A stretch of DNA of 64,000 nucleotides from the IMG/VR virus record IMGVR_UViG_3300045003_000166, positions 1 through 64,000 of that record, one strand, 5' to 3'. Positions 59,318 through 63,342 of this stretch are shown here, one piece after another. Under the pieces are notes generated by a model. The model did not search any database and had not been told where the DNA came from. It saw only the letters and a list, made by a program, of their open reading frames with translations. Every line of letters starts with the position of its first letter. Positions within the stretch are counted from its first letter, which is position 1. Made by a program: the position numbers and the translations under genes. The stretch is from a virus.

Positions 59318-60994
59318 GTGGCCAAGGGGCAGCAGCGAGCCGCCAACCCCGACCTGATGGTGGGGTTGCAGCAGCTCGCCAACGGGCTGCCCGACTACCA
59401 CCGCGCAGAGATGTACTACGAGTGCACCATGCCGGAGTTTTTCGCCAGCATCCGGCTGCGGCGCGCGCTCGAGCGCACCGGTGTCTCCTTCCGCTTCAAC
59501 CTCGCCTCCACCCCGGTCGATGTCATGGCGGACCGGCTGGAGATCGCCTCCCTCACCTGCCCCCAGGATGAGCAGGCCGACAACGCGCTGCAGGCGATCT
59601 GGCAGCACAACCTCATGGACCTGACGGCCGCGTCGATGCACCTGCGGGCCGGCGAATTCGGCGACGCCTACGCGATCGTCTGGCCGTCCGCCCCCGAGCC
59701 GGACGAGGACGACGAAGGCGACGACGCCGGGAACGGGGCCAACGACGCCGCGATCGAGCAGTCCCGCCGCGCGCTCTCCCAGCGCGGCAGCTCGGCGTTC
59801 GCCACACGCGGCGTGCACCAGGTGCCGGACGACGTGGACACCGACGTCGACATCTTCTACAACTCAGCGAAGACGACCCGGATCATCTACGACGCCGACA
59901 ACCCGCGGGTGAAGCGGTTCGCGATCAAGAAGTGGACCGAGCCCGCCCCCCTGGGTTCGAAGGCGAAGCCGCAGACCCGGGTCAACCTCTACTACCGCGG
60001 CCGGATCGAGAAGTACATCTCGGCGCCCAACTCGAAGGGCAACCAGCTCAAGGACTGGCTGCGCTACGAGGACCCGGAGGACGGCGGCTGGCCGATCGAG
60101 AACCCGTTCGGCGAAATCCCGGTATTCCACTTCCGCACCGAGATGCCGTACGGGTCGCCCGAGCACCGCGGCGCGTACGGGCCGCAGGACGCCATCAACA
60201 AGCTGATGATCACGCAGATGGCGACCATCGACTACCACGGCTTCCCGCAGCGCTACGTGATCGCCGACCCGGGCAACATGAGCGACGAGCTCGCCGACTT
60301 CGACACCGACGACGACATCAACCGCTTCGAGGACACCGGCCACGACTCCACCCTGCGCTCCGGCCCGGGTGAAGTCTGGTGGCTCAACGGCGTGCGCCAG
60401 GCCGGCCAGTTCAACCCGCCCAACCCCGAGGTGTTCCTGCAGCCGCTGGACACCTACACCCGGATGATGGCGCAGATCACTCGCACGCCGCTGCACTACT
60501 TCGATCCCCAGGTCTACAGCCGGTACGCGCCGTCCGGCGAGTCGATCCGGGCGAGCGAGGTGCCGCTGCTGAAGAAGGTGCGCAAGCGCCAGATCGCGTA
60601 CGGATCGGCGTGGCTGGAAATCTTCCGCTTCGCCCTGAAGGTGGCCGGCATCACCACCGACCCGGCGCTGGATCTGCGCTGGGTACCGGCGGCCACGATC
60701 GACGACCAGGTCGGCTGGGCGATGATCATGCAGAAGCAGCAGGCCGGCGTCCCCGTCCGGCAGACGCTGCTGGAAGCCGGCTACGACCCGGACATGGTGG
60801 ACTCCTGGCTGGTGAACGGCGAAGGCCTCGAGCAGCGGGTGAACCTCCTGTCCAAGATCGCCACCGCCGCCCAGGCGCTGGGTACCGCGACCGGGTTCGG
60901 CGTGCTCGAGCCGACCGACGTCAACAAGGTGATCATGAGCGTGCTCGAGCTTGACGACAAGACACAACCCGAACTCACCGTGGGGACGGCGTGA
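59318..60994 (+). CDS. portal protein
   Basis: 558 residues, GTG start with GGGAGGA upstream. Pattern of SPP1-type portals: N-terminal VGLQQLANGLPDYHRAEMYY, a stem region PVFHFRTEMPYGSPEHRGAY followed by DAINKLMITQMATIDYHGFP, then TRMMAQITRTPLHYFDP and SGESIRASEVPLLKKVRKRQ. The dodecameric portal is the DNA channel and terminase docking site. Its stop overlaps the next start. Confidence 0.93.
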   Translation: MAKGQQRAANPDLMVGLQQLANGLPDYHRAEMYYECTMPEFFASIRLRRALERTGVSFRFNLASTPVDVMADRLEIASLTCPQDEQADNALQAIWQHNLMDLTAASMHLRAGEFGDAYAIVWPSAPEPDEDDEGDDAGNGANDAAIEQSRRALSQRGSSAFATRGVHQVPDDVDTDVDIFYNSAKTTRIIYDADNPRVKRFAIKKWTEPAPLGSKAKPQTRVNLYYRGRIEKYISAPNSKGNQLKDWLRYEDPEDGGWPIENPFGEIPVFHFRTEMPYGSPEHRGAYGPQDAINKLMITQMATIDYHGFPQRYVIADPGNMSDELADFDTDDDINRFEDTGHDSTLRSGPGEVWWLNGVRQAGQFNPPNPEVFLQPLDTYTRMMAQITRTPLHYFDPQVYSRYAPSGESIRASEVPLLKKVRKRQIAYGSAWLEIFRFALKVAGITTDPALDLRWVPAATIDDQVGWAMIMQKQQAGVPVRQTLLEAGYDPDMVDSWLVNGEGLEQRVNLLSKIATAAQALGTATGFGVLEPTDVNKVIMSVLELDDKTQPELTVGTA

Positions 60995-61206
60995 TGGCAG
61001 GCAAGAAGGCCGCGGCGAAGAAGGTGCCCGCGAAGAAGACCGCCGTCCCGGCGAACATCGCCAAGGGCGCTCGGGTGAAAGACCCGAAGGGCAAGACCGG
61101 TGTCGTCACCTCGGTCACCGGCCAGATCGCGAAGGTGAAGCACGACGACGGCACCACCGACACCCACCCGCTCGGCGCTCTGTCCCCCGCCACCCGCGAC
61201 AAGTAA
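60994..61206 (+). CDS. small basic KOW/SH3-like protein
   Basis: 70 residues from ATG 60994 overlapping the portal stop. Lysine/alanine-rich arm (GKKAAAKKVPAKKTAVPA) and a barrel IAKGARVKDPKGKTGVVTSV, TGQIAKVKHDDG. Similar barrels occur at 17537 and 49942. Position suggests a head-associated or DNA-binding role. Confidence 0.6.
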   Translation: MAGKKAAAKKVPAKKTAVPANIAKGARVKDPKGKTGVVTSVTGQIAKVKHDDGTTDTHPLGALSPATRDK

Positions 61207-61216
61207 GGACACGGAC

Positions 61217-61435
61217 ATGACGATGAGCAAGCCCGCCCGGGCGACGGTGAAGCCGACCGCGCACGGGTACCCGGCCGTGAAGAAGGCACGCGCCGTACCC
61301 GCCATGCGCACCGACGCGCTCGGCCGGGCGAAGGCGAAGGCCCCGATGGGTGGTTCGCCCGCCGACCACGTGGTCGCCCCGCCGATCGCCGCGCGCACCG
61401 TGGACAGCAAGACCATGGGCAAGCGCCTGAAGTGA
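61217..61435 (+). CDS. small basic hypothetical protein
   Basis: 72 residues, basic and alanine/proline-rich, probably disordered (KPTAHGYPAVKKARAVPAMR). Overlaps the MuF gene by four bases. No family recognised. Confidence 0.5.
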   Translation: MTMSKPARATVKPTAHGYPAVKKARAVPAMRTDALGRAKAKAPMGGSPADHVVAPPIAARTVDSKTMGKRLK

Positions 61436-63342
61436 GCACGGACCCGGGCCAGGGATCGGGCGCGCCCGATTCCTTCGGCCCGGTCACCGACGCCGTCTTC
61501 GCAGCCACCGCCGCCTACACCGCCGACCTGGCCGCGCTGGAGGACCAGGCCGCGGCGGTTGCCGCGGGCCCTCTGCGCAACGGAGTCGCCGAGTTGTTGC
61601 GGCGCCTGACAGCCCTGTACGCGCGCTTGGCCGGATCACTTGACGCCCCGCTGCCCGTGTCCGCCGTCCCGCAGCTGCAGCAGGAGACCGCCGCGGCGCT
61701 GAACGCATTGCGCGCCCTCGACCCGACGCAGGCGATCGCCGACTCCGCCTCACAGGCCTACCACCGCGCCGCGGCGTTCGGGCAAGAGCAGGTGGGCGCG
61801 GTCGCCGTCGACCAGCTGCCCGGCGCGCAGGCGGACGGCGCGCTCATCCAGGCCCTCGACGACATCGCCGGCACATTCTCCTCCCGGATCGACGAGGCCC
61901 AGCAGATCGCGCAGACGGTCGCAACCCTCGACTACCAATCCGCTGTCCTGGACACCGCGGCGAAGGCGGGCCAGGCGGCCGGCCGGGCGGAGGCCGCGGC
62001 CCGCTGGTCGGTGAACCGCGGCGGCAACGCCGGGATGCGCGACGTCGCCCGGCAGCGCGGCAGCTTCCTGCTCTGGGTGGGCGAGCCGACCGCGTGCCTG
62101 GCGTGTGTCGCGTACGTCGGCCACTTCGTCGTCCCCGGCCAGTCGTTCCCGATCGGGCTGACGTGGGGCGACAAGCCTCTGACGCCGTGGCCGGACCCGG
62201 ATGTGCTCGACGGTCCGCCGCTGCACGCGAACTGCCTACCTGGAGACGCCCTCGTAACGTCCCGTAGTCGAATTACGGGTGCGACCTCTCGGGTATACAA
62301 CGGTGAGCTCGTCGAAATCAGAACTCTGGCAAACAAAGTCTTCACCGCTACCCCCAACCATCCGGTATTGACGGACCGCGGTTGGGTCGCGCTCGGCTGC
62401 CTCGATAAGGGAAGCCACGTGGTCGGCACCCTCGGCAGTGAAGGGGTAGTGCTTCGAGACCAGAATGATCACCACGTGCCAACCCGCATCAAGCAGGTAG
62501 CGGAAGCGTTTTTGGGCTCGGGCCACGTGGTCTCCCGAGAAGTGCCAGTGGCCGCCGAAGACTTCCACGGCGACGGTACCGGTAGCGAGGTCGCAGTTGT
62601 AGGGACCAATCGCCTTTTGCGGCGTGGTCTCGATCCCTCGCTCCGAAAGCACCCTGCGGAGATGGTGCTCGAGCGGGCTGGAGTGCGATTGCCGTCGTTC
62701 TCTCGTCCTCGCGCTGCGGAGCAGTTCACCCTCAGTCCTCTTTCGTCCGCGGACTGCAGCATGGGCCGCTTCCGCCAGACGAGCACGCTCGAGAGCGGGA
62801 GTCTGAGCCATGCGTACGTACATGGCTTCACTACGCCCTCGGGGTTCGACTCCTTGTTCCAGCAGGAAGCGATGGATTGTCCGTCGGCTGACTCCGCTGA
62901 CTTCGGCCAGTGCCTTCTCGCTGGTTCCAGTGGCGTAGAGCTCGATCAGGTCATCAGCGTTCGCCGGTACCCATTTTCGGGACATGTCTACAACCTTGAG
63001 ACGGAGGCAGGATGGTACATCAGCAATGGAATTGTAACCCATAACTGCCGGTGTGAGCTGATCACCTGGCTGGGGCCGGCCGCCCTGCACCCGGTGGACA
63101 CCGCGATCTACCACCGGCCCGAGCTGCAGGGGAACGTCGACCTGGCCGCGGCGATGCGCCGGGAGGCGAAGCGCGCCGTCCTGCGCGGCTGGTCGCTGCC
63201 CAGCGAGTCGGAGGCGGTGCGGCTGCGCGGAGCCGAGCGGCTGCTGCGCGCCGGGTCCGGACTGCCGAAGACGGTGGAGGCGCGGGCCCGCAAGGCGGTC
63301 AAGGACAGGCACTTCCCCGATCGCCGTCATGTCAATATCTGA
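61432..63342 (+). CDS. MuF-like head morphogenesis protein interrupted by an intein
   Basis: 636 codons, GTG start. Exteins: residues 1-267 and 539-636. The N-extein is helical, then ARWSVNRGGNAGMRDVARQR, LLWVGEPTACLACVAYVGHF and PPLHAN. The C-extein begins CRCELITW. Splicing would restore the H-x-NCRC motif of MuF-type minor head proteins. The spliced protein has 365 residues. Expected in the prohead close to the portal, before the scaffold gene. If splicing fails the conserved motif stays broken. Confidence 0.85.
   Translation: MSTDPGQGSGAPDSFGPVTDAVFAATAAYTADLAALEDQAAAVAAGPLRNGVAELLRRLTALYARLAGSLDAPLPVSAVPQLQQETAAALNALRALDPTQAIADSASQAYHRAAAFGQEQVGAVAVDQLPGAQADGALIQALDDIAGTFSSRIDEAQQIAQTVATLDYQSAVLDTAAKAGQAAGRAEAAARWSVNRGGNAGMRDVARQRGSFLLWVGEPTACLACVAYVGHFVVPGQSFPIGLTWGDKPLTPWPDPDVLDGPPLHANCLPGDALVTSRSRITGATSRVYNGELVEIRTLANKVFTATPNHPVLTDRGWVALGCLDKGSHVVGTLGSEGVVLRDQNDHHVPTRIKQVAEAFLGSGHVVSREVPVAAEDFHGDGTGSEVAVVGTNRLLRRGLDPSLRKHPAEMVLERAGVRLPSFSRPRAAEQFTLSPLSSADCSMGRFRQTSTLESGSLSHAYVHGFTTPSGFDSLFQQEAMDCPSADSADFGQCLLAGSSGVELDQVISVRRYPFSGHVYNLETEAGWYISNGIVTHNCRCELITWLGPAALHPVDTAIYHRPELQGNVDLAAAMRREAKRAVLRGWSLPSESEAVRLRGAERLLRAGSGLPKTVEARARKAVKDRHFPDRRHVNI
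62233..63045 (+). mobile_element. intein with antisense endonuclease gene
   Basis: 271 residues. Block A: CLPGDALVTS, Cys1 at 62233. Block B: VFTATPNHPVLTDRGWV with the TxxH of Hint domains. Block F: YPFSGHVYNLETEAGWYISN. Block G: GIVTHN, followed by Cys+1 at 63046. No LAGLIDADG or HNH motif is in the sense frame. The middle is antisense to a Vsr/EDxHD-like endonuclease gene. The segment is visibly less GC-rich than the flanking exteins, consistent with recent arrival. Confidence 0.88.
62236..62985 (-). CDS. Vsr-like (EDxHD/DUF559-type) homing endonuclease, antisense in intein
   Basis: 249 residues from ATG 62985 with AAGG eight bases upstream. Residues 10-48 are a HTH (LIELYATGTSEKALAEVSGV). 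Residues 104-180 fit the Vsr/PD-(D/E)XK fold: SPLEHHLRRVL (Glu106), IGPYNCDLATGTVAVEVFGG (Asp132, Glu141), HWHFSGDH. The stop TAG abuts the intein's first codon, so 750 of 813 intein bases are read on both strands with codons in register. Probably spreads the intein. Confidence 0.8.
   Translation of the reverse strand: MSRKWVPANADDLIELYATGTSEKALAEVSGVSRRTIHRFLLEQGVEPRGRSEAMYVRMAQTPALERARLAEAAHAAVRGRKRTEGELLRSARTRERRQSHSSPLEHHLRRVLSERGIETTPQKAIGPYNCDLATGTVAVEVFGGHWHFSGDHVARAQKRFRYLLDAGWHVVIILVSKHYPFTAEGADHVASLIEAAERDPTAVRQYRMVGGSGEDFVCQSSDFDELTVVYPRGRTRNSTTGRYEGVSR

Follow-up and report, generated by a model that had tools for sequence, protein, structure and literature searches.

The window analysed here is a stretch of 64,000 nucleotides (positions 1 to 64,000) of the 72,563-base virus record IMGVR_UViG_3300045003_000166. 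Near its end, the plus strand carries a MuF-like head morphogenesis (minor capsid) gene (61,432–63,342, 636 codons, GTG start) that hosts a contiguous intein of 271 residues (62,233–63,045, C1 to N271), inserted at HAN|CRC and followed by a +1 Cys. The joined MuF exteins matched MuF-like minor capsid proteins of Streptomyces and Microbacterium phages, unbroken across the junction. The criteria for an intein are present: block A (CLPGDALV) with a nucleophilic residue 1, block B with its TxxH (TPNH, 62,350–62,361, plus strand), block F (HVYNLET, in the context GHVYNLE; 62,983–63,003, plus strand), block G (NGIVTHN, 63,025–63,045, plus strand), the C-terminal Asn and the +1 Cys. Profile scores were 18.4 for the C-terminal region against TIGR01443 (above the cut-off of 15.6), 24.3 against TIGR01445 (marginally below its cut-off of 24.5) and 29.6 bits against PF14890 (cut-off 35.8). 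Five PDB entries matched the intein at E ≤ 0.001, all of them inteins. In an AlphaFold2 (AF2) model, both Hint ends had high pLDDT, and residues 123–232 fell below pLDDT 50. By computation, the sense strand encodes a Hint splicing domain whose middle is disordered and only weakly constrained; splicing itself is inferred. A folded nuclease in this middle was ruled out by the low pLDDT and by naive sense dN/dS values of about 1 or more. A fractured gene with a split intein was also rejected, since MuF and intein form one ORF. Between the portal-side ORF and MuF lie two short Lys/Arg-rich ORFs (60,991–61,206 and 61,217–61,435, plus strand) that we could not identify.

The minus strand of the intein encodes a 249-residue protein with an HTH and a Vsr/I-Bth0305I-like endonuclease domain (62,236–62,985). 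Its ATG at 62,985 is the complement of the CAT codon of the block F residue H251, and an SD-like AAGG lies 8 nt before it (62,994–62,997, minus strand), within the complement of the block F N-L codons. The frame ends with TAG in intein codon 2 (62,238–62,236), is in codon register with the sense frame and covers 92% (0.92) of the intein. The protein was modelled with AF2 from an alignment of 25 sequences (mean pLDDT 89.4, pTM 0.69). Residues of about 1–53 (62,827–62,985, minus strand) form an HTH domain with a fold like the DNA-binding domains of Hin, gamma-delta resolvase and Mos1 (Z about 6). The nuclease domain spans residues of about 102–220 (62,326–62,682, minus strand); in the model, residues ~100–220 matched Vsr (1cw0) with Z 12.0 over 113 residues and the homing endonuclease I-Bth0305I (3r3p) with Z 10.3 over 93 residues, and the sequence profile matched 3r3p as well (E 3.1e-5). 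Pfam scores were under the gathering cut-offs for both strands; for the antisense protein, hits comprised an HTH and PF18741 (MTES_1575 REase, residues 106–180, E 2.8e-5), where 24.5 bits missed the gathering score of 38.2 bits. The predicted model shows a Vsr-type nuclease fold; nuclease activity is inferred.

Among 18 divergent family members sharing 24–45% identity (alignment A1), Y129, D132, E141 and R160 are invariant and E106 nearly so, and the copy in the window retains the invariant residues. With respect to the E-D-x-H-D motif, E106, D132 and E141 are conserved, and the H and the last D could not be placed; in the alignment to 3r3p, E106 and E141 stand opposite Glu and D132 opposite Ala. 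A sense motif conserved in the family, FHGDG (62,563–62,580 in the window), mirrors the nuclease strand TVAVE, which holds E141.

An earlier note, made from the sequence alone, had proposed most of this arrangement. Its claims of a full Hint domain (blocks A, B, F and G) in the HxNCRC motif of MuF, of an antisense ATG and SD, of a stop codon touching intein codon 2 and of in-register reading in both directions over 92% of the intein all held. Its 249-residue HTH plus Vsr/EDxHD-type endonuclease held as to HTH and Vsr fold; two residues of the EDxHD motif could not be placed. The endonuclease does share DNA with blocks A and B as claimed, but the antisense tail across these blocks is poorly conserved throughout the family.

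Using tblastn, the antisense protein detected homologues in 128 phage records (64 from Salmonella, 15 each from Gordonia and Pseudomonas, 8 from Klebsiella, the rest from others) and the intein, as sense query, in 125. Beyond phage records we found one Chloroflexota plasmid, and more loci in viral contigs and genome contigs. Clustering of 65 nuclease sequences at 80% identity gave 45 clusters, in a set that contains repeated contigs and counts a few fragments separately. The antisense homologues lie nearly always opposite a MuF-type head gene, and wherever the sense frame was inspected the host gene resembled one. Several insertion sites are used. Insertion before the C of HxNC-like motifs is commonest, and others were found before CTIDGKTRPSH in Sejanus (L009) and before CRARDG in KMB36 and BEU35 (L014, L052). 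In the IMG/VR contig L038, a single MuF gene is interrupted twice: the first intein follows ARTE, the second sits at an N|C site further on, and both have an antisense nuclease frame of their own. The IMG/VR entries L039 and L110 (the latter from the L038 contig) were grouped with it as two-intein MuF genes, the frames having been inspected in L038.

Only one of the 23 annotated records (L003–L020, L050, L051, L053, L054 and L109) has the nuclease annotated as a gene, and this is the free-standing copy of Acinetobacter phage P1068. ORF43 of phage vB_StyS-sam, annotated opposite MuF, was considered as a further case and ruled out, its start being one base out of frame. Structural variants occur. 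In Rhodococcus phage REQ3 (L018), the intein seemingly starts with Ala (HPN|AVLEGS) instead of Cys, block F is divergent and the antisense nuclease has no HTH. Two IMG/VR contigs (L027, L028) have an N-terminal intein part about 40 residues longer before block B. The longest member, from Micromonospora sp. ATA32 (L045), has an intein of 393 residues by the parser and an antisense protein with apparent repeated HTH-type segments. Codon and start tests were performed on hand-picked representatives (42, 41 or 43 loci, depending on the test). Eight loci outside the motif parser were inspected by eye (L015, L029, L033, L037, L038, L039, L048, L055); parsed intein lengths are a few residues short for L031 and L032, and L018 received no first Cys call.

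Two frames in register permit a direct comparison of which strand is selected, sense codon position 1 being antisense codon position 3 (wobble). In the exteins and Hint blocks, position 3 changed fastest, the pattern of a normal gene, whereas in the intein centre the fastest-changing position flipped from sense position 3 to position 1. The central ratio of position 1 to position 3 changes was 1.67 in Gordonia Vividuovirus, 2.07 in Guernseyvirinae, 1.60 in Pseudomonas, 2.12 in APunk/Keitabear and 1.39 in Klebsiella/Edwardsiella; the exteins of the first four sets gave 0.23–0.63. Over all 37 pairs, which are not mutually independent, the ratio was 1.45 in the centre versus 0.61 in the exteins. 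In six comparison sets, naive central dN/dS was 0.09–0.21 for the antisense and 0.96–2.29 for the sense frame. The window copy's closest relatives are saturated (central ratio 1.08 versus extein ratio 0.95) and provide little information, and the site-2 Kagunavirus pair KMB36/BEU35 differs by one central change, too few for the test. Protein-level constraint on the antisense frame is thus shown in relatives, those nearest to the window being too diverged. At codons 15–30, position 1 exceeded position 3 in the Guernsey and Pseudomonas sets but not in the Gordonia Vividuovirus set; selection on the antisense tail over blocks A and B is uneven.

The sense strand left a different mark. Antisense Leu/Ser codons TTA, CTA and TCA were counted, since they would stop the sense frame: none occurred among 1,533 such codons in 42 representatives (207.5 expected from extein usage), versus 12 of 39 Leu/Ser codons in the free-standing P1068 nuclease gene. 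The loci of this count had been parsed for an open sense frame. A later set of 17 loci was selected by nuclease homology alone and not preselected in this way (16 from one nuclease query, plus L110, which is on the same contig as L038; three Aaphi23 copies are included). Both frames were open across the nuclease match in 17 of 17 loci, down to 38% GC, with 0 of 661 antisense Leu/Ser codons being TTA, CTA or TCA. Very distantly related phages thus keep both frames open, and most likely the sense frame in the intein centre only needs to stay open.

The start region of the nuclease coincides with block F. Its start codon sits opposite the block F His, and this His is encoded by CAT in 34 of the 39 representatives having His at this position (extein usage predicts 14.1); the remaining five use CAC, i.e. 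antisense GTG. The block F Leu is CTC in 30 of 41 representatives (11.4 expected from extein usage), which places an antisense GAGG or GGAGG about 7 nt upstream of the nuclease start. Because the representatives are related, these figures are not strict probabilities. Ordinary inteins were parsed as a control, but only 4 of 30 loci yielded a parse, none of the four with His at this position, and this is too few. Where the block F His is substituted (L023, L026), a Met is found two codons downstream. Within the Guernsey set, the fraction of codons with a third-position difference is 0.08 at intein codons 245–264 (block F towards G), compared with 0.45 in the last eight intein codons and 0.63 just outside the intein. 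Such a low rate fits a regulatory load on this segment. As a lead only, a possible -10-like TACAAT (63,031–63,036, minus strand) is the complement of the block G Ile-Val codons ATT GTA, and a hexamer opposite the block G I-I/V codons matches at at least 5 of 6 positions in 15 of 43 loci, the window among them. An antisense promoter in the complement of block G is conceivable but not established, and antisense transcription is inferred.

Intein DNA was much more similar than its surroundings in some pairs: 95.2% identity between Snoke and BPS11Q3 (exteins 69.6/83.3%), 99.7% between KMB36 and BEU35 (exteins 89.6/90.2%) and 98.8% between KpTDp1 and RCIP0061 (N extein 85.3%, short C extein 98.2%). 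Double coding slows change, and the contrast is therefore inflated; even so, central differences at the antisense wobble position were few (1 in 201 codons for KMB36/BEU35, 5 in 228 for KpTDp1/RCIP0061). A Vividuovirus trio revealed no such contrast (intein 86–90%, exteins 90–97%). Some copies look recently moved from host to host, though double coding can explain part of the signal. Empty sites are common: 39 of 60 listed MuF records aligned in one piece along the full length of an 80-residue junction query. A given site is thus found both occupied and empty among relatives, as expected for homing.

In Acinetobacter phage P1068 (L015; 2,333–3,226, plus strand), a free-standing nuclease relative lies beside an intact MuF gene, convergent with it and overlapping its final bases. 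The earlier note had named relatives with the same intein and a broken antisense frame as what would refute it. We found one real case, in a Thiotrichales MAG (L046), where the intein is open yet only 194 residues long, and where the nuclease frame is broken and without its start; this probably represents the decay stage expected in a homing cycle. Two UNVERIFIED records (L055, L056) have frameshifts in both strands and in the exteins.

We conclude that the locus is likely a mobile MuF intein with a nested antisense homing endonuclease gene (probability roughly 0.86), where splicing, cutting and antisense transcription are all inferred. This reading rests on the antisense constraint, the Vsr/I-Bth0305I fold, the SD and start codon, the free-standing relative and the signs of transfer. 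The earlier note's claim of a contiguous intein with its homing endonuclease on the opposite strand is thereby supported; nuclease activity and the claimed separate transcription of splicing and homing are inferred. In the mechanism we propose, the homing endonuclease would be a separate antisense gene between blocks B and F, the usual place of a sense-strand endonuclease domain, and would have transcription and translation of its own, separate from those of the late head operon. In co-infecting phages whose MuF gene lacks the intein, the nuclease would cut that gene close to the conserved HxNC codons, and break repair would copy intein and nuclease together. The intein would then splice out and restore MuF, so that insertion would cost the phage little.

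A bolder reading takes several claims jointly, and we lean towards it only slightly. It holds that these loci form a large, old class of MuF inteins with splicing and homing on opposite strands in register; that RBS and start of the nuclease are the complement of block F, its His codon doubling as ATG; that some members may also have an antisense promoter in the complement of block G; that homing follows a timing separate from that of the late head operon; and that the intein middle is kept as protein only because stop codons are barred.

Among the alternatives, two survive best, though both are unlikely. First, the antisense protein may be made but act in something other than homing, for instance in the exclusion of competing phages or in MuF regulation. 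There are no cleavage data, the HTH could regulate, and homing nucleases of the free-standing kind are also able to keep out other phages. Against this, the patchy presence, the empty sites, the signs of transfer and the use of several sites within MuF are consistent with homing. Second, most copies, including that in the window, may be inactive relics of past homing, as the decayed Thiotrichales locus and the REQ3 nuclease without HTH might suggest. However, a frame without selection would not stay intact for long, whereas here dN/dS is low and only one of the well-sequenced intein copies inspected has a broken frame; the window copy has the invariant residues. Third, and very unlikely, the antisense transcript might mainly silence MuF or intein expression with the protein being secondary; the overlap and the -10-like sites of some members would suit this, but the antisense frame is selected at the protein level. 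Finally, a passive mirror, in which the antisense frame is open merely because the sense codons are GC-rich and persists along with the conserved intein, is all but excluded: the window and many members are GC-rich and long antisense ORFs also occur opposite other genes nearby, but codon-position pattern and dN/dS mark the antisense protein as the conserved one, members at 38–50% GC stay open in this frame, and neither the nuclease fold nor the free-standing relative is accounted for.

If the homing reading is true, splicing and spreading are split into two independently expressed genes on one stretch of DNA. The locus would be a natural full-length in-register antisense gene pair in which selection on either frame can be tested clearly, region by region. 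It would explain odd inteins without a recognisable nuclease whose middle resembles random peptide, and would supply unannotated homing nucleases. It is also a warning that conserved sense motifs such as FHGDG, the mirror of TVAVE, can reflect the opposite strand.

The earlier note had considered the arrangement undescribed. We did not find an antisense nuclease inside an intein in the literature searched, which excluded Dassa 2009, Gorbalenya 1998 and Gosselin 2025. The preprint of Gosselin, Arsenault and Gogarten (2025, doi 10.1101/2025.01.02.630785) on non-canonical actinophage inteins may overlap with our findings. The ShiLan paper (PMC11855218) cites it and Gorbalenya 1998 for overlapping reading frames in actinophages, and a partial prior description is therefore quite possible.

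Among known systems, inteins whose LAGLIDADG or HNH homing endonuclease domain is in frame share the Hint blocks, a nuclease between blocks B and F and insertion at a conserved host codon; the present nuclease, however, is on the other strand, has its own start and RBS and lies outside the spliced-out peptide. Fractured genes reportedly pair split inteins with nucleases of the EDxHD (I-Bth0305I) family (Dassa 2009) and likewise associate a Vsr-like nuclease with a phage intein, whereas here host gene and intein are contiguous and the nuclease is nested and antisense. In the Didymium iridis group I introns S956-1 and S956-2, the HEGs are oppositely oriented, one being expressed antisense (PMC13182076). 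There too, a nuclease gene is antisense to a self-splicing element, but that element is an RNA intron, and the host strand therefore needs no open protein frame across the nuclease. The hidden ShiLan-type HNH nucleases of phage methylases, reported on the same strand and without a detectable RBS (PMC11855218), share a homing nuclease in a different frame with the host frame kept open. Theirs is a same-strand HNH without a splicing domain, whereas ours is antisense and Vsr-like, lies within a true intein and has a clear SD.
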